IMG/VR virus record: IMGVR_UViG_3300029922_001100
Coordinates: 1 to 20,077 of that record
Source: a virus
DNA: 20,077 bases
Direction: 5' to 3' (one strand)
This document shows, one piece after another, positions 6,405-18,527 of the stretch. Under the pieces are notes generated by a model, which did not search any database, was not told where the DNA came from, and saw only the letters and a program-made list of their open reading frames with translations. Positions within the stretch are counted from its first letter, which is position 1. Every line of letters begins with the position of its first letter. A program made the translations under genes and the position numbers.

Positions 6405-7316
6405 TTAATAAACTTGTACAGTATATGACGTTCCAGCCATCAACATTTTATTTACAACGCTCGAAATTATCTCAACATAAGATACTCCCAAAGCTACACT
6501 TAATGATGTAGGTATCCAAACAATAAATTTATAAGTTGTATCAGAACCAGAAATTGCAGAATCAGAAACAACTGAAAAATTAGGAATATCACCAACTAAT
6601 CCTAATTTTACATCTGCAACTAAAAGTGTAGGATATGTAACCGCAACTGTTGTTATAAAAATATCAGAAACATTATATCCACCTGCTGATAAGTACCATA
6701 TTCCTAATATTGATGTTGCATTAACTGTATATGCTACTGTTCCATCCCTATATGATGTTGGTTGCCTAAATGTAGTTCTAAACCAACGATTTAAAGCATA
6801 TTCCATTATCAGTTTTTGGCTATTATATTGCGCTCTTTCTTGCGCTCCAATATAGGATGGTGCTATTTTGTACCAACAATACGATGTAGTTTTTGTTGTT
6901 GGATCGAAATTTAATAAACCCCAATCTGTTGAAGATGGTGGATTTGAAGTAGTTGCAACTAATACTTGATAATAATTTCCATCAAAATAAAGAACTACAT
7001 TTCCTGATGTATAAGTTCCTGTAATCCAATATAAAGGATTGTCTGGTGAATTTCCAAGATTATTTCCACAAGTTGAAATATAAACTCCTTGATATGTAAT
7101 TACTGTATCATTAATTGAATATCCTATTGTGCTAATCCAACTATTAGATACTAAATCTCCATAACAGTAATTCCAAAAATTCTTATTTAGCCACATATTC
7201 TGCCCAAGCATCCCTTGTTGCCATGCGATAAATCGAGGCGTTCTATGGGATGTCGGAAGAAACTCTATTGCAAGATCATTCCAATCTATTATTGGTAGTT
7301 GTTGGACTGTTGGCAT
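6405..7316 (-). CDS. Tail protein I-like baseplate protein with two inserted modules (303 aa)
   Basis: The N-terminus (LAIEFLPTSHRTPRFIAW, 15-32, then LNKNFWNY) and the segment AQYNSQKLIMEYALNRWF (162-179) fit a Bacteroidota phage family that follows baseplate J genes. There one sees 'LLP..R...w...L' and 'LE..LN..F', and the family stands in the place of P2 gpI, linking baseplate to fibres. Between these two segments lie two modules rich in aromatic residues, about residues 60-97 and 98-132 (GYSINDTVITYQGVYIS; TYTSGNVVLYFDGNYYQV), each ending at a P-x(n)-W. They resemble chitin-binding-type (CBM5/12) modules. The remaining C-terminus is a beta-rich domain of unknown role. The order J-like, small genes, I-like, fibre matches this function. 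The module call is by pattern. Confidence 0.6.
   Translation of the reverse strand: MPTVQQLPIIDWNDLAIEFLPTSHRTPRFIAWQQGMLGQNMWLNKNFWNYCYGDLVSNSWISTIGYSINDTVITYQGVYISTCGNNLGNSPDNPLYWITGTYTSGNVVLYFDGNYYQVLVATTSNPPSSTDWGLLNFDPTTKTTSYCWYKIAPSYIGAQERAQYNSQKLIMEYALNRWFRTTFRQPTSYRDGTVAYTVNATSILGIWYLSAGGYNVSDIFITTVAVTYPTLLVADVKLGLVGDIPNFSVVSDSAISGSDTTYKFIVWIPTSLSVALGVSYVEIISSVVNKMLMAGTSYTVQVY
6921..7139 (-). other. Two carbohydrate-binding-like modules inside the tail-protein-I-like gene
   Basis: This stretch codes for residues 60-132 of the tail-protein-I-like protein. Each module has the pattern W/T-x-x-G-x-x-Y-x(3)-D/N-x-V-x-Y-x-G-x-Y-x, then P and a closing W. They sit between the two conserved blocks of the host protein family, that is, inserted in its core rather than added at an end. 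Confidence 0.55.
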
Positions 7317-7318
7317 AT

Positions 7319-7528
7319 TTATTTTGAATAATCTCTTATTCCTAATTTTTCATCAAATGAAACTGTAATATATAATCCAGTACATTCAAATTCTTTTAAA
7401 GTTTTAATTAATTCTTTTTTTGAATAAAATTTAAACTTTCTTTTATTTCCAATTCTGATAGTTCCTTGACGGTAGCAGTAATTATATTTATCCTTTACAA
7501 ACTCACCATCTTTCAACCTATTTGGCAA
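7319..7528 (-). CDS. Small basic protein, TTG start; possibly the second half of a split gene (69 aa)
   Basis: The frame opens at TTG (7528-7526), reads (M)PNRLKDGEFVKDKYNYCY, and has no ATG. It overlaps the 3' end of the upstream 41-aa frame by 11 bases. It is basic and contains GTIRIGNKRKFKF, comparable to SGKIRIKIGDKIL in the 41-aa frame, which hints at two copies of a small beta-rich unit. Removing one A from the A6 run at 7530-7535 would join both frames into one protein of about 110 residues with no other change. This may therefore be one gene with a programmed or mutational frameshift, or a sequencing indel. The stop is two bases from the start of the tail-protein-I-like gene. Function unknown. 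Confidence 0.5.
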   Translation of the reverse strand: MPNRLKDGEFVKDKYNYCYRQGTIRIGNKRKFKFYSKKELIKTLKEFECTGLYITVSFDEKLGIRDYSK

Positions 7529-7643
7529 CTTTTTTACAATTTAAAATTTTATCACCAATTTTAATCCTAATTTTTCCAGACTTTACAATTTCGTATAAAA
7601 TTCCATCGAAATTAACAAATAACTTAGATAAAACAAAACTCAT
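7518..7643 (-). CDS. Short ORF coupled to the baseplate J-like gene (41 aa)
   Basis: The ATG at 7643 overlaps the TGA of the baseplate J-like gene in an ATGA arrangement, a strong sign of translational coupling. The frame reads MSFVLSKLFVNFDGILYEIV and on to KKVAK, then TAG. The protein is small, basic and beta-prone, with no signal. It ends shortly after an A6 run beyond which the 69-aa frame continues, so it may be the first half of a split or frameshifted gene. No family recognised. Confidence 0.6.
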   Translation of the reverse strand: MSFVLSKLFVNFDGILYEIVKSGKIRIKIGDKILNCKKVAK

Positions 7644-8677
7644 ACGGCTATACAATTAAGATTTAAAATTCCGCTTGTACCTGTCCTAAAATCACTTAAT
7701 TGAGAAAAATTAATAGAACCACCAGTTGATGTATTATTTTCTAAAGATATATATCCGGCTATTGATGACCAACTTTTTGCGTTTTCTGTTGGATTTAAAC
7801 CTCCACTCCATCCTGTACTTGTATTCCATATTGCACCATTTGAAACAAGATATTCCTGATATGAAGTTCCCCAAGTTGGCAATCCGGCAGATGTTATATC
7901 CGGTCTTACAGCTACATTTATAAACTCAACATCATTAACTCCTGTTACTGATAATATTGCATTTTCTAATGCAGATAATTTCATTGTTGCAGATAAGTTA
8001 CTATTAAATGCTGTTGTTGATAATGAATTAAGAAAATTTGTTATCGCTGTTTGTACTGATGCGAATATGATTGCAGAATAAGCTCCATTATAATAAACAT
8101 CTAATTGTAAAAATAACCAATCGCTTTTTGCAGAACTTACAACATAAGATATTCCCGGTGCTGCAATTAAGTTAGAGAATGATACTGCAGATGCTAAAAC
8201 TCCAGATGAAACTGGAACAGGTAAACCATTTGAAGATGATGCTATTTTTATTAAACATTGTCCTGAGTATCCTTCTTGAGCTATACAAAATGCAATTGGT
8301 AGATTTGCTGGATTTGCAGGTTGCGACCAAATTACAGATAAAGGATTAACTCCTGTTGATGGTTGTATTTGTGGTAATATCGGAGTTGTTGAATTATACT
8401 GCATATTTAGGAATTGATATTGGAACCATCCTAAAGTTTGCGGTTGCGCTGCGGATATTAATGCTTCTTGTTGAGATAGAAATAAATCGTACTGCTGTTC
8501 CTCAAAACCAATACCTGAGGCAACTGTATTCAAAAGTAATAATTTATAATCCGTTTCTGATAAATTTCCGGGAACAGATACCCAATCTTGTGGATTTATG
8601 GTAATTCCTAAAGATGCAGCAGCAGCGACTAAATCAGCAGAAAGTCCATTTTGAATTAAGATTATTGGTCGTGCCAT
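7640..8677 (-). CDS. Baseplate J-like protein (345 aa)
   Basis: Baseplate J proteins form the wedge of contractile tails and link the hub to the fibres. The pattern here fits the shorter versions found in Bacteroidota phages. A helical N-terminus has ISAAQPQTLGWFQYQFLNMQY (about 94-114), in the place of the usual 'a....W....l' opening. A middle beta region carries YVVSSAKSDWLFLQLDVYYNG, and then a helix has AITNFLNSL. A conserved-type ending ALENAILSVTGVNDVEF matches the 'l..ai..v.GV.dv' of the family. The last 80 residues (W-G-T-S-Y-QEY onward, G/S/T/N-rich) are an extra tail, possibly attaching a fibre. It follows the tail-terminator-like gene, and its TGA overlaps the next ATG. By-eye family call, fairly firm from the GVNDVEF region and context. 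Confidence 0.65.
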   Translation of the reverse strand: MARPIILIQNGLSADLVAAAASLGITINPQDWVSVPGNLSETDYKLLLLNTVASGIGFEEQQYDLFLSQQEALISAAQPQTLGWFQYQFLNMQYNSTTPILPQIQPSTGVNPLSVIWSQPANPANLPIAFCIAQEGYSGQCLIKIASSSNGLPVPVSSGVLASAVSFSNLIAAPGISYVVSSAKSDWLFLQLDVYYNGAYSAIIFASVQTAITNFLNSLSTTAFNSNLSATMKLSALENAILSVTGVNDVEFINVAVRPDITSAGLPTWGTSYQEYLVSNGAIWNTSTGWSGGLNPTENAKSWSSIAGYISLENNTSTGGSINFSQLSDFRTGTSGILNLNCIAV

Positions 8678-8686
8678 CTTTATTTA

Positions 8687-9592
8687 TTAGATTCTACAAA
8701 TTATATACCAATGAGCAGGTGTAAAAATTATATCTGAATTTGAAATGATACATTGATAACAAAAACCACCAATATATATAAAATTGTCGGTATGGTATGC
8801 CGTACCCGAAACCCATATAGGCACATACGCCCACTTTACAGCCTCAAACGTTGCGTCATTATTAGTAGTGGTGCATAGGTATTCTCCTACTAAATTCGGG
8901 GCTAAATTCAAATATACACAATTTGCAAATGCGACATATTCTGTACCTGAAATCCAAGTAGATTGCGGAGTTTGATTAAGTGTAGCATTTATTTGTACAG
9001 AAGTTTGGTATCTGAATGATTTAGGATCGTACATAGACCCTTTCGTATCATTAAAACAAAATGAAAATCCTCTTAAATATTTTGTTATTGTATTGTGTTT
9101 ATAATCTTCTTTATCATATCTACTCATCATTGCAGATGAGAATGAAGTGTGAAAACCGTTGAAATTTGAAGTTATTAAATCTCTTAAATAAAAAATTTCA
9201 AAGTTTGCATCAATTAAATTAGAATAGTCTGAGCGATTATCAGTAGCTAATTGATCTGAAAAAATATGAAAGTAAACGCAAGCATCCATATATTGAGTTA
9301 CGCCTCCTAAAATATCACTTCCTTCTCCAGATATAAACTCAATAAAAAGTGAAGGGCATTTAACTATAAATCCATCACCTTTTTTTAATGATTGCGTTTC
9401 TATATCAATTTGGTCATTCCAAATTCCAATATACTTAAAAACTTGATTTACATTTGACGGAGTTTTTTGGATATTATTTGCAGGTTTAGGCGTAGGTATA
9501 GGATTGTCAACCAAGATTGTATTGGCTTTTGCTATTATATCTGTATATACATCTGAAAAGCCCATATTACCTAAATTGCCTATCCAACTCAT
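8687..9592 (-). CDS. Tail-terminator-like protein with two C-terminal modules (301 aa)
   Basis: The core (about 50-200) contains KCPSLFIEF, GGVTQYMDACVYFHIFS and a helix with LRDLI and GFHTSF. This resembles a family near gpG-like genes in Bacteroidota phages: 'P..fiEf ... v.fhI', which in Mu-like clusters is the tail terminator or gp37-like joining protein. Residues 213-295 form two tandem modules of about 40 residues (WISGTEYVAFANCVYLN to W254; WVSGTAYHTDNFIYIGG to W295). Both share W-x-SGTxY-x(3)-n-x-V/I-Y and end in W, like CBM5/12 chitin-binding modules. The start overlaps the gpG-like gene by 26 bases, so the two are translated together. Positions 8791-8860, inside the module part, are 34 G+C of 70, unlike the core (9061-9120: 12 of 60), hinting at later acquisition. 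Confidence 0.6.
   Translation of the reverse strand: MSWIGNLGNMGFSDVYTDIIAKANTILVDNPIPTPKPANNIQKTPSNVNQVFKYIGIWNDQIDIETQSLKKGDGFIVKCPSLFIEFISGEGSDILGGVTQYMDACVYFHIFSDQLATDNRSDYSNLIDANFEIFYLRDLITSNFNGFHTSFSSAMMSRYDKEDYKHNTITKYLRGFSFCFNDTKGSMYDPKSFRYQTSVQINATLNQTPQSTWISGTEYVAFANCVYLNLAPNLVGEYLCTTTNNDATFEAVKWAYVPIWVSGTAYHTDNFIYIGGFCYQCIISNSDIIFTPAHWYIICRI
8708..8956 (-). other. Two tandem carbohydrate-binding-like modules at the C-terminus
   Basis: The stretch codes residues 213-295 of the 301-aa protein. Two units begin W-x-SGT-x-Y and end W, with four aromatic residues at corresponding positions. They are more similar to each other than to the modules in the 303-aa protein. G+C here is visibly higher than in the rest of the gene. 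Confidence 0.6.
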
Positions 9593-9998
9593 TAATTAAA
9601 AGTGAAACTTGCTTATTCTCTAATTCTTTAGATTGTGTAACAAACTCTCTTTTAAATTCAGTTTCACTTCTATATTGATTTTCTCCATCCTGATGATATG
9701 AAGCATATCCTTTTCCTCTTTCATCTATTGGATCAATTGTAAGAGTTCCTGTATTTCCCACAATTATTGGCTTATTTCCAATCGCTTCACTTTTTAAATC
9801 TCCACTTAAATCTAATATTGGTGGTGGTGTATCCCTATAAGAAATTCCATTCCAACTTGAACCAGTTTCCTTATTTGATTCAGTATCAAAATTCTCCTTC
9901 ATCTCCTCTTGCGCCAATTCAATGCCTTTTTGTAAAAATCTTCTTTCTACAACTTTCATTCTTGATGCTACTTGTTTGAAGTTGAATTTAGATGACAT
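9567..9998 (-). CDS. Head-tail completion protein, Mu gpG / HK97 gp10-like (143 aa)
   Basis: The layout fits the phage virion-morphogenesis family: a helical N-terminus (about 10-38), a segment with WNGISYRDTPPPILDLSGDLKS (49-70) equivalent to 'W.......p..L...G.L..s', then strand regions, YASYHQDGE (about 98-106) equivalent to 'yA..hn.G', and a C-terminal helix ending the protein. Members act when the tail is joined to the filled head. The length is normal for the family. The gene lies between the portal group and the tail-terminator-like gene, whose start it overlaps by 26 bases. Upstream are three tandem 17-bp repeats. The start ATG at 9998 is preceded by GATTAAGTCTT-like AT-rich sequence, without a ribosome binding site I can point to. 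Confidence 0.7.
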   Translation of the reverse strand: MSSKFNFKQVASRMKVVERRFLQKGIELAQEEMKENFDTESNKETGSSWNGISYRDTPPPILDLSGDLKSEAIGNKPIIVGNTGTLTIDPIDERGKGYASYHQDGENQYRSETEFKREFVTQSKELENKQVSLLINELDRQFR

Positions 9999-10016
9999 AC
10001 TATCTGATTAAGACCG

Positions 10017-10089
10017 AAAATCAATTCACACTAAAAATCAATTCACACTAAAAATCAATTCACACTAACAAAAAAATTAATTCACGCTA
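10017..10089. repeat. Three exact 17-bp tandem repeats plus a diverged fourth copy
   Basis: AAAATCAATTCACACTA is present three times without change at 10017-10033, 10034-10050 and 10051-10067. A related unit, AAAATTAATTCACGCTA, lies at 10073-10089. On the minus strand the fourth copy holds the last codons and TAA of the 54-aa gene, and the exact copies follow between it and the gpG-like gene. It therefore looks as if the 3' end of that gene was duplicated in tandem. Each copy has TAG and TGA stops; the 17-bp period puts stops in all frames. Confidence 0.9.
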
Positions 10090-10241
10090 AATGGCAAAAT
10101 AACGTAACAACTTTTATCCTTATATTGAGCAAATTGATTATTAGAAAATATATAATGTTCAGATACTGAGAAATAAGCAAAACATTGTTTTGAAATAGGA
10201 CAAACAATGCTAAATCCTAAAAATGATTTTTGAATTTGCAT
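10077..10241 (-). CDS. Small protein (54 aa) with a strong ribosome binding site
   Basis: The ATG at 10241 lies in a TAATG overlap with the stop of the upstream 200-aa gene. It is preceded at a 5-base distance by AAAGGAGG, the best Shine-Dalgarno sequence in the window. The product, starting MQIQKSFLGFSIVCPISK and ending FSVN, is aromatic-rich with three cysteines, without a signal or clear membrane segment. I recognise no family. The gene fills most of what would otherwise be a 240-base gap between the 200-aa and gpG-like genes. The stop lies in the fourth unit of a tandem repeat. Coupling and ribosome binding site make it more likely a true gene than chance, despite its size. Confidence 0.6.
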   Translation of the reverse strand: MQIQKSFLGFSIVCPISKQCFAYFSVSEHYIFSNNQFAQYKDKSCYVILPFSVN

Positions 10242-10843
10242 TACAACCTCCTTTCTTTTGGTTTAATATATTCAATCCTACTCGTTAGTGGTACTTTATT
10301 CATTATCTTTAAATCCGAATTTATCTTTTTGCGAATTGGTTCCATTATCTGAAATTCAATTCCATCAAGAACATATTGAAGTTTAATGCAAATTTCTGCA
10401 ATTTTTGGATATGCAACTTCGTTGAAGTATTCTAAAATCCAAAAATTAATATTTCCATCAAATTCTTTATATGTTTGAATACAATCAGATGAATCCCAAA
10501 CTTCTTCCGGTGTAGCCCTTCTCAAAATCTCAATAGCCTGAAACATTTCAGCACAGATGAACTTTCTCTTAAAAGTACAAAGATTATCCCATGTAGTACA
10601 AACAACTCCACCATTTCCATCATTAAGAATAATTTCACGATTATGCCAAACGTTCATTTGAACTGGATTCTGAAACTTCATCAATCCAATTAGAGTTTCT
10701 TTAAATCCTTCTGGATATTCATCCTCTGGAAAATTTATTTTAGAAAGTTCAGATAATCTTGTTCTTTCATAAAATTCCTGAGCTTGTTGAACATTTTGAT
10801 AGTCTTTGTTTTTAGGAATTATTTTTACTTGATTTAAGTCCAT
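10241..10843 (-). CDS. Hypothetical protein downstream of the portal (200 aa)
   Basis: I recognise no family. The protein begins MDLNQVKIIPKNKDYQNVQQ and is mixed alpha/beta and hydrophilic. Its middle has MNVWHNREIILNDGNGGVVCTTWDNLCTFKRKFICAEMF, and the C-terminus is basic (KERRL). There is no signal peptide or membrane segment. The four cysteines and the block GNINFWILEYFNEVAYP may be useful for profile searches. It sits between the portal and the completion protein; in related clusters this is where head proteins and small accessory virion genes occur, so a virion or assembly role is possible. Its stop overlaps the start of the 54-aa gene (TAATG), and the last codons double as that gene's ribosome binding site. 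Confidence 0.75.
   Translation of the reverse strand: MDLNQVKIIPKNKDYQNVQQAQEFYERTRLSELSKINFPEDEYPEGFKETLIGLMKFQNPVQMNVWHNREIILNDGNGGVVCTTWDNLCTFKRKFICAEMFQAIEILRRATPEEVWDSSDCIQTYKEFDGNINFWILEYFNEVAYPKIAEICIKLQYVLDGIEFQIMEPIRKKINSDLKIMNKVPLTSRIEYIKPKERRL
10242..10254 (-). promoter_or_regulatory. Strong Shine-Dalgarno sequence before the 54-aa gene
   Basis: The minus strand reads AAAGGAGGTTGTAATG, with GGAGG five bases from the ATG. It lies in the end of the 200-aa gene, where the two AGG codons encode Arg-Arg. Other starts in the window have A-rich leaders, so this one stands out. Confidence 0.65.
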
Positions 10844-10871
10844 TGTATTTGCTTGCTTTTTAGATTAATAA

Positions 10872-12335
10872 TTAAGTTGTAGTTTCTGGATCTTTTTTAA
10901 TTTCAGTTTTACTATCTTTTTTCTCATCCAACTCTTTCTTTGGTTCAGCTTTGATAAATCCACCTGTAATTTCAGGTAAAAGATTATTTAAGTCTGATAT
11001 GTCTGCAATTTGCACTCCACCGTCATATCCATCTTTGACGCACTTCATCATTGCTCCATAATGCGATGTAAACCTACGAGCAACTTCTTGATCCTCTTTG
11101 TCGTTAGTAAGACCATAAATATATCCATCTGGAACAAAATCCAAACCTTTATATCCTATATATCTTCCTAATTTACGAAATGCAGGAAATGAAATTTCAT
11201 TCATTTTTGCAATCTCAAAATTAGAATAAGTATTCTGTTTTTGATTAATTGCTTGCTCCATTGTGGATTCATTGAATCCATCTTTATTTGAAGTTACATT
11301 TGCTCCAACTTTTCCCGGAGTTGTCATCATTGCATCTTCGTGTCCTAAAGCTAATTGAGATAATTCCTTCTTTAAGAAGTTAGCAGCATCTCCATGAGAT
11401 TTCCATCCAGTACCAGTTCCGCTTCCTGTTGCTGTTTCAAATTTAACTTCATCCTGAGTTCCTCTATCTAAAAGTATATATTGATTTGAAGATGGGTTTG
11501 CTAAAAATGCTTCAAATTTTTGACGAGCTTTACCCTGCTTATTAGTTGTTCCAACCCTTGTTGGTTGACCGTAATTTTCGATGAAATCCATTCTCCATCC
11601 TTTTAGGTGTTTAAGGTGGATTGCATATTCTGAAATGTTATATAACATTCCATATCCAACTTTAGAAACACCCCTATTCGATTTTGTTGGTATAAAATGA
11701 TTAAACATTTTAATTATTTCATCATTTTCTACCTGAATACCATCTATATAATAAGGAACAGAAGTTAATAATGCACCTTTCCATAAGTCTATCCTGATAT
11801 TTTCAGGACGAGTAAAAGTCATATTTGGAAATGGATTTGGCAAAGTAGAATCAAAATCTCCTAATTCTATTAATCGAAACCCCCAAAGTATTGCATCTAA
11901 TACTAATTCCCTGTAATCCCTTAACCAAAAATGCGCATTTAATGATTGTGTTAAATCTTTACTAACAACCTTTTTTTTACCGGAGTTTGGTTTTTTTGGA
12001 TCAATTTGATACTTATAAACTTCCGGATCTCTTTGAAGAACCAATTCCTTCATCCTGTATATAAGTGCCTTAACGAAAACATCCTCCTGCGTATCAATAT
12101 AAATTCTTGTAGCCTTAGTTGTGAATGGAAAAAATGGCAACTCCATTTCTTTTATCGCCTCTCTCCAATCTGAAATATCTGCCGCCCATCTTTGGAATTG
12201 AATTGGAGCAATCGCATTTGATAAATGAGTTGGAGTTATAGCACCCCTGCCGGAATTTTGCGACCAATATCCAAAAGGATTAAACACTCTTGGATCTGGA
12301 ATTAATGTTTGTTGTCCTAAGCGGGAGAGTTGCAT
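10872..12335 (-). CDS. Portal protein, DUF935 / Mu gp29-like (487 aa)
   Basis: The portal is the dodecameric ring at the head vertex through which DNA enters. This protein has the DUF935-like order: an N-terminal region with SDWREAIKEMELPFFPF, a helical core with a R-D-Y-R-E-L-V-L-D-A-I-L-W-G segment (about 139-152), strands with PENIRIDLW, and the marker ENYGQPTRVG (253-262), matching 'fG.P.r.g'. This is followed by a segment that reports position (FLANPSSNQYILLDRGTQDEVKFE) and a long C-terminal helix region around 330-420. Length is in the family's range. The C-terminus is a charged KKDPETTT-type tail. The start follows the 59-aa gene's stop with one base between. The packaging order TerL, MTase, connector, portal is compatible. 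Confidence 0.75.
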   Translation of the reverse strand: MQLSRLGQQTLIPDPRVFNPFGYWSQNSGRGAITPTHLSNAIAPIQFQRWAADISDWREAIKEMELPFFPFTTKATRIYIDTQEDVFVKALIYRMKELVLQRDPEVYKYQIDPKKPNSGKKKVVSKDLTQSLNAHFWLRDYRELVLDAILWGFRLIELGDFDSTLPNPFPNMTFTRPENIRIDLWKGALLTSVPYYIDGIQVENDEIIKMFNHFIPTKSNRGVSKVGYGMLYNISEYAIHLKHLKGWRMDFIENYGQPTRVGTTNKQGKARQKFEAFLANPSSNQYILLDRGTQDEVKFETATGSGTGTGWKSHGDAANFLKKELSQLALGHEDAMMTTPGKVGANVTSNKDGFNESTMEQAINQKQNTYSNFEIAKMNEISFPAFRKLGRYIGYKGLDFVPDGYIYGLTNDKEDQEVARRFTSHYGAMMKCVKDGYDGGVQIADISDLNNLLPEITGGFIKAEPKKELDEKKDSKTEIKKDPETTT

Positions 12336-12336
12336 C

Positions 12337-12516
12337 TTATAGTGTATCTTTTACTATTCTTTGAAATAAAGATAAGCAATCTAATGATTTTTTTCTTACT
12401 TCTTCTGAAACAGAATAATCTTGATTGATGTACTTTACAAAACCAAATATAGAATCGTGTAGTATATCAATTTCTTTCCAAGAAAGTTTTATTTCAAATA
12501 TTGTATCTTTTTCCAT
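12337..12516 (-). CDS. Small hypothetical protein upstream of the portal (59 aa)
   Basis: The frame reads MEKDTIFEIKLSWKEIDILH and ends IVKDTL before TAA, one base away from the portal ATG. The sequence is helix-prone, amphipathic and slightly acidic, with no signal. I recognise no family. Its support is tight packing (17 bases after the 116-aa gene, one base before the portal), a sensible composition, and the fact that it fills the only sizeable gap there. A small assembly factor is possible, but this is speculation. Confidence 0.6.
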   Translation of the reverse strand: MEKDTIFEIKLSWKEIDILHDSIFGFVKYINQDYSVSEEVRKKSLDCLSLFQRIVKDTL

Positions 12517-12533
12517 TTTAATTTAAATTTTAA

Positions 12534-12884
12534 TTATCCTATAAATTCCTCTTTTAATTCTTCAAAAGCCTTTTTCATTTCATCAATCTTATTCCTGTTT
12601 AACATTGCTTCCGTTGAAGCCCCATCATTAGTAAGTGATATTTTCTTTTCTTCTTTTGGAGTTGTATAAAATTCAATCAAATTTGATATGCTTTTAGCAT
12701 ATTCAAATTCACCAATTGATATGCACTGCATCTGAACTTTATACAAAATAGCTACAAACCAATTTTTGTTAGTTTGATATTTATCATTTTTGCTTTTTTG
12801 TACTAATTCAAATATATTATATCCGCTCCAAATTGAACCTAAAAAAAGAAAAATACAACCTATGAAATAAAATGCTTGAGCCAT
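12534..12884 (-). CDS. Protein with N-terminal membrane segment (116 aa)
   Basis: The start MAQAFYFIGCIFLFLGSIWSGYNIF has a single hydrophobic stretch (about 5-26) that should be a membrane anchor or uncleaved signal. It is followed by a basic NDKYQTNKNW segment, a helical region (VQMQCISIGEFEYAKSISNLIEF), and an acidic C-terminal helix (KIDEMKKAFEELKEEFIG). No family recognised. One transmembrane segment plus a soluble helical domain could fit an accessory membrane protein, such as one involved in lysis or exclusion, or a virion-associated protein, but no feature selects one. The gene lies in the connector-portal group, 17 bases after the previous stop, so it is co-transcribed with virion genes. 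Confidence 0.65.
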   Translation of the reverse strand: MAQAFYFIGCIFLFLGSIWSGYNIFELVQKSKNDKYQTNKNWFVAILYKVQMQCISIGEFEYAKSISNLIEFYTTPKEEKKISLTNDGASTEAMLNRNKIDEMKKAFEELKEEFIG

Positions 12885-12901
12885 TAGATTAGTTGCTTGA
12901 T

Positions 12902-14011
12902 TTAAAAAGTATTAATTATCTTCGGCATCCCTCCCCAACTAATATTCCCACTTTGCTCCGGTTGAATAATGGGAATTAAAGTAGTATCTTCTCCTTTCTT
13001 TATTAATTCCAATTTTCTATAAGCCCAATCTCTTTTAATTGCCCTTTCCTTAATCATAAAAGAATTGCGAATATTGAGATGACTTAAAGCTATTGCAACA
13101 ATAATTTCCTTCATTATTGGATCTCTATTATCTCCAACATTCCACTGTTTTCTATATCCATCAGTCCATGCTGGAATACCACAATTTAATTCTGGATCAT
13201 TCCAATTTGTAGCAAATGGTAAAACTGATTTAAAGAAAAATTCACCATTATCATTCCATTGGGATTTTCCGCAATCAAATCCAAATCCTAAATTAAATCC
13301 ACCTTTTTGATTAGGAAAAATATTTGGTGGAGGAATATTTGATATTTGGTAGTATTGCTCTTTTGCTTGATGACCTGTTGCTATACTTTGCTGGATGCAT
13401 GTATATGTATGATTTGCCCAACAAGTATTATCGTTAACATAATATACGCCGGGAGTTTCAACTCCAATTTGAGGTGATGGCATTAATTGAAATATAGGAT
13501 ATGGAAATGGAACATTATAAATATCATACCAAGTTCCTATTGCAGTCCAGTTTGCAGTATTCCAAACTTTATCCGAATTTGGTTGAGCGCAACAATATCC
13601 AATCCAAGTTGAACCATCTTGAAAATTTCCAGTATAAACTCCATTTGAATATCCAATTCCACCGTTGTATAATACACAATCACCTATTGCATAAGATTGC
13701 TCAGAACTATTAATACTTTCACCTTCAATTCCAGATGAACCAATCCAAGTTGGAAAATTAATTATACACCTATCTCCAGCGAAATATTTTCTATTAAAAT
13801 AAAAAGGTTTAATATCTCTAAATTCAAAATCAAGATAAAAATAAGATCCTAATTTAGAATAAACTTCTGATATTGCGTAAGCCTCGGCGTTATTTCTTTC
13901 TAAATCACCACCTTCTGCAACGTAATCTAATAATTGATTAATTAATTGATCCGATCTTATTGTGGTAAGATAGTCGTTAAGTATTAAATATGGTGTGTAT
14001 TGCCCTTTCAT
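12902..14011 (-). CDS. Head-tail connector, gp36/DUF1320-like, with large inserted region (369 aa)
   Basis: The ends of the protein match the DUF1320 / Mu gp36-like joining-protein layout. The N-terminus has LNDYLTTIRSDQLINQLLDY, then NNAEAYAISEVYSKLGSYFY (40-60), the 'D......A...A...v..yL' helices. The C-terminus has DPIMKEIIVAIALSHLNIRN (298-317), and then a helix ending LELIKKG, the usual '...L..i..G'. Between about residues 72 and 295 there are over 200 residues not expected in this normally 130-150-aa family. The insert is aromatic- and cysteine-rich, with YAIGDCVLYNG (107-117), a NGVYTGNFQDGSTW segment and VYYVNDNTCWANHTYTC (189-205). These resemble CBM5/12-like modules. The order with TerL, portal and gpG-like supports a connector. 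Confidence 0.6.
   Translation of the reverse strand: MKGQYTPYLILNDYLTTIRSDQLINQLLDYVAEGGDLERNNAEAYAISEVYSKLGSYFYLDFEFRDIKPFYFNRKYFAGDRCIINFPTWIGSSGIEGESINSSEQSYAIGDCVLYNGGIGYSNGVYTGNFQDGSTWIGYCCAQPNSDKVWNTANWTAIGTWYDIYNVPFPYPIFQLMPSPQIGVETPGVYYVNDNTCWANHTYTCIQQSIATGHQAKEQYYQISNIPPPNIFPNQKGGFNLGFGFDCGKSQWNDNGEFFFKSVLPFATNWNDPELNCGIPAWTDGYRKQWNVGDNRDPIMKEIIVAIALSHLNIRNSFMIKERAIKRDWAYRKLELIKKGEDTTLIPIIQPEQSGNISWGGMPKIINTF
13367..13786 (-). other. Module-bearing insert of the gp36-like connector
   Basis: The stretch codes residues 76-215. At least two, possibly three, units show Y-x-x-G/N-D-x-V/C-x-Y/W-x-N/G ... Y-x-C and Trp-rich ends. The connection to the modules of the 301- and 303-aa proteins is by shared pattern, not by identity, and is weaker than the similarity within the 301-aa pair. 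Confidence 0.5.
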
Positions 14012-14061: not shown

Positions 14062-14775
14062 TTAAAACCATAAGTCGTCCTCAATTTCGTATGGTAAAAA
14101 TAATGAATTTTTATGGATGTAACGTTCAAAATCTTTTTTTGATTTTTCGCAATATTCTTGATTTATTTCTATACCAGTAAAAGGATATCCTAAAACAAAA
14201 GCTGCAATTCTTGATGCACCAGAACCTAAATTTGTATCTATTATTGAAACTTTTCTTTTTAATTTTTCTTCGATTGGTTTAAGATATATTTCAAATAAAT
14301 CTTTATATAATTCCATTGGCTTTCCTGTTTCATGCCAAGATTCTGCATCAGATCTATTTCTAAACATTCGTGTATTTATCTTCTTTTCACTTAATTCATG
14401 ATCCGATACCCAAGCCATTTCAAATTGAGAATAATGCATCCCCCTCGGTATTTTTTTATCCCAAACATACCAATTATTATTTGGATATAAAAATGGATAT
14501 CCTTCTTTATTAATAAGTCCTGTAAAATAATTTCCACCAAAAATTATCTGCTCATAGCTTATTCTAAATAGATGATAGAAAAATTCCTCTTTTGGCGCAC
14601 CTAACCAAGTTTTAAATCCGCCTTTTTTTCTATTTGCAATATCTGGTTGATTTTCATCTCTATATTCAGGATCTACTATTGCTACATCAAATTGTTTATC
14701 TTTACATGAACGCATGAATAATATATTATCCATACATAAAACTTGACTACTGATTTTTTGCTTAATTTCTACCAT
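14062..14775 (-). CDS. DNA methyltransferase, beta-type amino-MTase (237 aa)
   Basis: This should methylate an amino group of adenine or cytosine in DNA using S-adenosyl-methionine. Motif IV is VDPEY (34-38), in place of the usual DPPY; motif I comes later, at DTNLGSGASRIAA (180-192), followed by GIEIN (201-205). Order catalytic first, SAM-binding second, marks beta-class enzymes. Between are an IIFGGNYF segment (77-84), WYVWDKK, FEMAWVSD and WHETGKPMELY (147-157). The last aligns with the family's HPTQKPVxLY. The third motif-IV residue is Glu instead of Pro, so activity or specificity may differ. Placement after TerL suggests protection of phage DNA against host restriction, or a role in packaging marks. 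No restriction partner is visible. It starts with a 14-bp repeat shared with the end of TerL. Confidence 0.75.
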   Translation of the reverse strand: MVEIKQKISSQVLCMDNILFMRSCKDKQFDVAIVDPEYRDENQPDIANRKKGGFKTWLGAPKEEFFYHLFRISYEQIIFGGNYFTGLINKEGYPFLYPNNNWYVWDKKIPRGMHYSQFEMAWVSDHELSEKKINTRMFRNRSDAESWHETGKPMELYKDLFEIYLKPIEEKLKRKVSIIDTNLGSGASRIAAFVLGYPFTGIEINQEYCEKSKKDFERYIHKNSLFLPYEIEDDLWF

Positions 14776-17783: not shown

Positions 17784-18527
17784 TCAAATTTTAACCTCCT
17801 TTTCCAATTCCTTCTTACACCTTTTAATAATCAAAGATATTGTTGCCTTAGTCCAAACCGAATCTTTATATGGCGTTTTAAATCCACCATCATTAAGTAG
17901 TTTGCATATAAATCCAAGACTTTTTCCGCTTTGATGTAAAGAATATACCAATCCTCTAACTGGTTTTTCTTTTTCAAATCTTTCTTTTTTCTTACTTTCC
18001 GCTAAAGCCCTTATTTCGGATGCAGCCATTTTCCCTTCTTTTGGATTTTCATTTTCAAATCCAGATTTTCCAATTGGGCAACCTAATCTGAAATTTGGAT
18101 TTTTCTGCAATTCTCTTTCTCTTAATCTTCCAAGTGCATTTTTAGTGTTATTAGATAATGTATCGGAATAGTCTTGCGCAACTAATGCTAATATTCCTAT
18201 TGTTAATGGATTTGCATTTGGATTATCGCAACAAGTAAAATCTACGTTTGAATCTTGAAGCATTAAAACTAATGATGCTTTTCTACTTAAACGAGATACA
18301 TTTGCAATAATTAACCTACCTTTTAATTTTTTAGTTAGTTCGAGTGCTAATCCTAATTGTTCTCTTTCTTCGTTAGTTCCAGTTTCGATTTCTGTAAATT
18401 CGTAATCTGGTTCTTCTCTTAAATATCCAAATACAAGGTTTTTTTGAGATTCAAGACCTAAGCCGGATTCCCCTTGTTTTTTAGTGGATACTCGATAATA
18501 AGCGATTGTTGGTTGTTTGCTTGCCAT
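17784..18527 (-). CDS. Serine recombinase, resolvase/invertase family (247 aa)
   Basis: The N-terminal catalytic domain has YYRVSTKKQ with the nucleophile Ser14, ESGLGLESQ, the TGTNEERE stretch, and SRLSR with Arg79 and Arg82, the equivalents of the two conserved arginines in gamma-delta resolvase. A helix-turn-helix lies at about 187-240 (GFICKLLNDGGFKTPYKDSVWTKATISLI). The spacing and the GESGLGLE motif put it in a widespread 'recombinase family' group of phages and bacteria. Unusual: around 114-129 the expected A-E-x-E-R...E/K-R-T is AQDYSDTLSNNT, so the conserved Glu and Arg pairs of the start of helix E appear as Y-S and N-N. Function could be integration, resolution or inversion of phage DNA, or a reduced activity. 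A candidate promoter and a palindrome lie upstream. Confidence 0.8.
   Translation of the reverse strand: MASKQPTIAYYRVSTKKQGESGLGLESQKNLVFGYLREEPDYEFTEIETGTNEEREQLGLALELTKKLKGRLIIANVSRLSRKASLVLMLQDSNVDFTCCDNPNANPLTIGILALVAQDYSDTLSNNTKNALGRLRERELQKNPNFRLGCPIGKSGFENENPKEGKMAASEIRALAESKKKERFEKEKPVRGLVYSLHQSGKSLGFICKLLNDGGFKTPYKDSVWTKATISLIIKRCKKELEKEVKI

Follow-up and report, generated by a model that had tools for sequence, protein, structure and literature searches.

Genetic organization of the locus

The window, meaning the whole stretch of DNA analyzed here (IMG/VR record IMGVR_UViG_3300029922_001100), is a virus contig of 20,077 bases with its virion genes on the minus strand. Several gene names were assigned from gene order. 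The features that matter for the analysis are:

17784-18527, serine recombinase (PF00239 and a weak PF07508 match), upstream of the packaging genes
minus strand, terminase large subunit (PF04466)
14062-14775, N6/N4 DNA methylase (PF01555), between the terminase and adaptor genes
12902..14011, minus strand, gp36-like head-tail adaptor, 369 aa, relative of Mu gp36 / PF07030
13133..13816, minus strand, adaptor insert, residues about 66-293, taking the place of a short loop that joins two helices of the core
13538..13714, minus strand, adaptor module 1, CBM5/12-type, residues about 100-158 (HMM 9.6 bits at 106-122)
13337..13456, minus strand, adaptor module 2, CBM5/12-type, residues about 186-225 (HMM 9.4 bits at 189-215)
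10872..12335, minus strand, Mu-type portal protein, 487 aa (PF06074, 73.6 bits)
8687..9592, minus strand, tail-terminator-like protein, 301 aa, role assigned from position
8825..8956, minus strand, terminator C-terminal module 1, residues about 213-256 (HMM 2.6 bits at 218-255; the weakest unit)
8702..8824, minus strand, terminator C-terminal module 2, residues about 257-297 (HMM 6.2 bits at 264-295)
7640..8677, minus strand, baseplate-J-like protein, 345 aa (phrog_38413, E=2.4e-6), with no module in the window copy
6405..7316, minus strand, tail-protein-I-like baseplate protein, 303 aa, named by gene order, following the J-like protein
7023..7139, minus strand, tail-I-like module 1, residues about 60-98 (HMM 7.8 bits at 66-97)
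6915..7022, minus strand, tail-I-like module 2, residues about 99-134 (HMM 10.3 bits at 100-132)

The remaining virion genes encode tail completion and fibre proteins, a Clp-type protease (PF00574) and the capsid. The contig stops before the sheath, tube and tape measure genes. The serine recombinase could be an integrase or an inversion enzyme, and a temperate lifestyle is therefore possible. Among named phages, the Flavobacterium phages FPSV and lotta8 (Winoviridae) are the closest, with portal identities of just 21-24%. The source is an uncultured phage with a Mu-type head, and its host is probably a member of the Bacteroidota. Most relatives in which all three genes were seen share the close succession of gp36, terminator and tail I.

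The adaptor, the terminator-like protein and the tail-I-like protein are all intact open reading frames. The adaptor groups with Mu gp36: a helical core flanks its insert, and among the conserved genes the PF06074 portal comes next. Its relatives pass PF07030. The window adaptor has no Pfam match of its own, and jackhmmer joins it to the gp36 homologue of lotta8-2 (E=5e-38). In BFVD, its AlphaFold model (pLDDT 69, pTM 0.72) matches an uncultured phage protein named ‘Bacteriophage Mu, Gp36’ (E=2e-16), and the best match among named isolates is the DUF1320 protein of lotta8 (E=1.3e-3). The names given to the other two proteins in the first-pass annotation are provisional: they come from position and family membership, and no profile match names either protein. 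The terminator-like protein belongs with the lotta8-2 gp31 family (jackhmmer E=9e-24) and weakly matches phrog_6911, a family of unknown function that also occurs in its relatives. The tail-I-like protein matches a relative’s protein (L016:8965-9633) at a jackhmmer E=1e-50. No Pfam or PHROG match names it, either in the window or in its relatives, a PDB search with its alignment gave no match, and its AlphaFold model (pLDDT 49) is too poor for a fold search.

Detection of the modules

The modules cannot be demonstrated by BLAST or Pfam within the window. Pairwise BLAST between window proteins gave E about 0.4, which is not significant, and none of these proteins passes the Pfam CBM cut-off, the best score being 12.2 bits (tail-I-like) against 26.2. 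Relatives were therefore needed. Scans of IMG/VR with the single window proteins gp36, portal and terminase returned no relative, and neither gp36 nor tail I from the window gave a tblastn match in phages. A scan with a portal alignment yielded 80 related IMG/VR contigs, and gp36 homologues were then gathered by jackhmmer. In a phylum-wide sample of bacterial genomes, prophage copies were present in 4 of 396.

We trained a module HMM on the modules of the relatives, leaving the window out. Domain scores above zero were obtained in exactly the three proteins that the first-pass annotation had proposed to carry one module type, with no such domain in the 18 others of the 21 window proteins. In a six-frame search of the record, a second module profile gave a single hit, at 13649-13696 (E=0.0019), within gp36 module 1.

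The shared pattern might in principle be an artefact of composition in aromatic, glycine-rich phage proteins. The three proteins are indeed among the richer ones in the window in Trp and Tyr (8-12%), and the insignificant BLAST scores between them also fit this explanation. The sum of the two best module-HMM domains was therefore compared with 5,000 composition-preserving shuffles per protein. The observed sum was reached by none of the shuffles for gp36 and tail I and by 2 for the terminator; shuffling the segments alone again produced at most 2 matches in 5,000. None of 828 other phage ORFs reached the sums of the three proteins. We consider an artefact very improbable and reject it for gp36 and tail I; for the terminator, the case stands on the 2 in 5,000 shuffles. 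The modules in the three proteins are beyond chance, and the triple decoration with two modules per protein was seen in this record alone.

Relationship to CBM5/12

The first-pass annotation had likened the segments to CBM5/12, and this identification holds by sequence for the relatives, through Pfam and PDB 1ED7, and more tentatively by predicted fold for window gp36. Several inserts in gp36 relatives exceed the Pfam CBM_5_12 cut-off (among them L013 38.0 bits, L067 27.3, L016 27.2, L024 27.0). In L013, the insert scores 38.0 bits with CBM_5_12 and its flanks score 34.8 bits with Phage_Mu_Gp36. The module profile retrieves 1ED7, the chitin-binding domain of chitinase A1, at E=3.6e-7, followed by chitin deacetylases and phage tail fibres. 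The window modules are linked to CBM5/12 through intermediates: they match the relatives’ HMM above shuffles, and the relatives’ modules in turn match 1ED7. The link is weakest for the terminator. Module 2 of the tail-I-like protein reaches E=0.19 with Pfam CBM_5_12, below the cut-off, and P=4.7e-4 in hhalign; terminator module 2 reaches P=5.7e-4 over 33 columns.

In the model of window gp36, the helical core is broken by short strands at both modules, at residues 112-115, 118-122 and 155-160 in module 1 and at 195-198 and 201-205 in module 2, where a small three-stranded beta fold would have them. Chitin deacetylases, chitinases and their binding domains prevail among its PDB matches (1ED7, TMt 0.63; 2D49, TMt 0.58). 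These matches are individually weak, the best having E=9e-3 and none reaching E<=0.001.

Distribution of the modules among relatives

For all three proteins, homologues without the segments exist, which identifies the segments as additions to the cores. The adaptor is best sampled. The proposal of a gp36 insert with at least two modules stands. The limits proposed for the segments were close to those found here, but the gp36 insert is wider, spanning about residues 66-293, and a loop interrupts its first module. Among 56 distinct gp36 homologues, 31 carry strong modules, either one or two, at a common site in the adaptor, and 15 have no insert; the latter are 137-189 aa long, and their core runs on across the gap. 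In a further nine, the window included, the insert is weak or diverged, and the remaining one is a fragment. The division between strong and weak inserts is our own, made at about 20 bits. The insertion site is identical in all insert-bearing homologues. Human gut Bacteroides phages match gp36 in the core alone.

The first-pass annotation had called a connector split in this way unusual. This does not hold within the clade, where most of the relatives found share exactly this split. The alignments indicate that the split adaptor is clade-wide, with a shorter or weaker form in the cultured Flavobacterium phages. We found no paper on CBM5/12 modules inside a head-tail adaptor in the part of the literature that was searched. 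On the tree of gp36 cores, in which the window is only loosely placed on a long branch (2.38), the insert must have changed state two to three times, by gain or by loss. In four homologues of 356-378 aa (L013, L024, L006, L082), the insert also holds roughly 100 additional residues beside the modules, with no assigned fold.

In the tail-I-like protein, the insertion site lies after the N-terminal helices and before the motif I-G-x-x-E-R. The reported placement of two units inside the core is supported, as 11 relatives have one module at this site (degenerate in L012) and about nine have none; the window has two. Across the 18 non-window loci that show all three genes, the tail-I module occurs only where gp36 has modules, a co-occurrence that may stem from mere shared ancestry. 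The tail-I module of L016 also matches proteins of the Vibrio phages 2.058.O, 3.058.O and henriette 12B8 and of the uncultured marine phage MedDCM-OCT-S30-C28, at 41-55% identity over 38-65 residues; one of these is annotated as carbohydrate binding. The module thus occurs in unrelated phages.

Modules are found at other positions in two relatives. The tail-I-like homologue L021:4167-4853 bears one elsewhere in the protein, at residues about 130-160, a placement that points to repeated, independent acquisition. The J-like protein L006:6639-7673 (phrog_38413, E=3e-49) has a C-terminal module at 300-334 that scores 40.5 bits with the HMM and 21.2 bits with Pfam (cut-off 26.2). Judged by these profile matches, it is a fourth type of virion protein to receive the module in the clade. 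Together, the two positions imply that the module type was added more than once.

The terminator is the weakest of the three cases. Its two C-terminal units score 6.2 and 2.6 bits, in agreement with the earlier description, and are absent from 53 homologues. These are 150-224 aa long, against 301 aa in the window, where the extra part is C-terminal. A search of this C-terminus against phages gave nothing better than E>=0.4. Of all the modules, those of the terminator are the least secure, and among the sequences compared they are unique to this record.

These alignments also bear on whether the segments are simply ordinary family core with nothing inserted. The gp36 insert is shared by most relatives found and is, in that sense, normal in the clade. 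Against this stand the homologues that lack the segments and have a continuous core: 15 of gp36, about 9 of the tail-I-like protein and 53 of the terminator. As a rescue would need ancestral modules to have been lost many times, we reject this explanation, which we regard as scarcely credible.

Predicted sugar-binding residues

Three residues, Tyr, Tyr and Trp, are invariant across the phage modules. In CBM5, a consecutive exposed aromatic pair is important for chitin binding, and conserved Tyr and Trp form the hydrophobic core (PMC8449059). The invariant residues appear to include the two of this hydrophobic core. At the position of the Trp-containing ChiA1 loop, the module profile reads Gly-x-x-Pro, as do most modules. 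The Trp of this loop, Trp687, takes part in chitin binding, according to the title of a study cited in PMC8449059. An aromatic residue five positions before the last Trp is present in 20 of the relatives’ 61 modules, as well as in window gp36 module 1 (W150, W155) and both terminator modules. As a guess, this residue could rebuild a binding face. Sugar binding by the window modules is putative.

This pattern lends some weight to a structural alternative, in which the modules have the CBM5/12 fold but no sugar ligand, and act as clamps or spacers, making the adaptor ring and baseplate thicker or touching neighbouring virion proteins. Most of the prototype’s exposed binding aromatics are unconserved, residues of the core type are invariant, and the modules are located inside assembly proteins. 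However, the number of modules at the site varies from zero to two among homologues, which shows that the core can do without them. Tail-fibre proteins in PHROGs and the PDB are also matched by this module type, and the aromatic before the last Trp is retained in a third or so of the relatives’ modules. Overall, we consider a purely structural role rather unlikely.

Proposed role of the modules

On balance, the observations are probably best explained by added, exposed modules at the neck and baseplate that make weak, avidity-driven contacts with polysaccharide. The added units leave the assembly cores intact and probably project from the surface of the neck and baseplate. They would most likely act through many weak contacts; CBM5 modules bind soluble chito-oligosaccharide at about 2 mM only (PMC8449059), so avidity would matter. 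Candidate ligands are capsule or envelope glycans of the host, or environmental particles. Such contacts may keep the virion close to a cell until its fibres take hold. In cryo-EM of Mu, the adaptor is dodecameric and the terminator hexameric, with the terminator C-terminus reaching the sheath (PMC11915804). With 12 copies of the adaptor, 6 of the terminator (as in Mu) and an assumed 6 of the tail-I-like protein, a virion would display about 48 modules.

We tentatively extend this to the clade. It is possible, though somewhat doubtful, that in these phages of Bacteroidota the dodecameric adaptor bears as many as 24 glycan-binding modules arranged in a ring, and that here the terminator and baseplate bear them too, giving graded avidity to polysaccharide along the virion. 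The usual view of the adaptor is that of an invariant component of assembly. Across these relatives its inter-helix loop takes from none to two modules, and consequently resembles a natural site for display on the neck of the phage. A joint protein that is essential thus seems to have a second role as carrier of possible sugar-binding modules. If the modules do bind sugar, adsorption would start with many weak contacts of neck and baseplate.

Comparison with known systems

The window adaptor resembles Mu gp36 (PF07030; 9KHX, 5YDN) in its helical core and its place beside the portal gene. Mu gp36 has 141 aa and no insert, in contrast to the insert of about 230 residues between the core helices here. 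The gp36/DUF1320 ‘head-tail adaptor’ of FPSV-S1 and lotta8 (Winoviridae) is the same protein with the same insertion site. Its inserts are shorter, at about 45-90 residues: that of FPSV-S1 contains a weak module (12.5 bits), and that of lotta8 falls below the HMM threshold.

Like CBM5/12 (PF02839; 1ED7, 2D49, 1AIW), the phage modules show the pattern Y-x(2)-G-D-x-V-x-Y ... Y ... W, and the gp36 model tentatively suggests a similar three-stranded fold. They differ in having a shorter loop before the last Trp, in mostly lacking the exposed binding Trp, and in residing on virion assembly proteins, whereas the CBM5/12 prototype is found on secreted enzymes.

A close parallel is provided by the lactococcal 936 siphophages, whose neck and tail carry CBMs that attach to host cells (Hayes et al. 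2019, PMC6669499). There too, several neck, tail and baseplate proteins have added CBMs (the neck passage structure, the tail protein extension and the evolved Dit), two of which were shown to bind host cells. In contrast to the present modules, those of the 936 phages have other folds, serve phages of a Gram-positive host, and are placed on dedicated collar or extension domains, not in the adaptor ring. CBM-decorated virions are already known, and modules within the adaptor ring differ from them.
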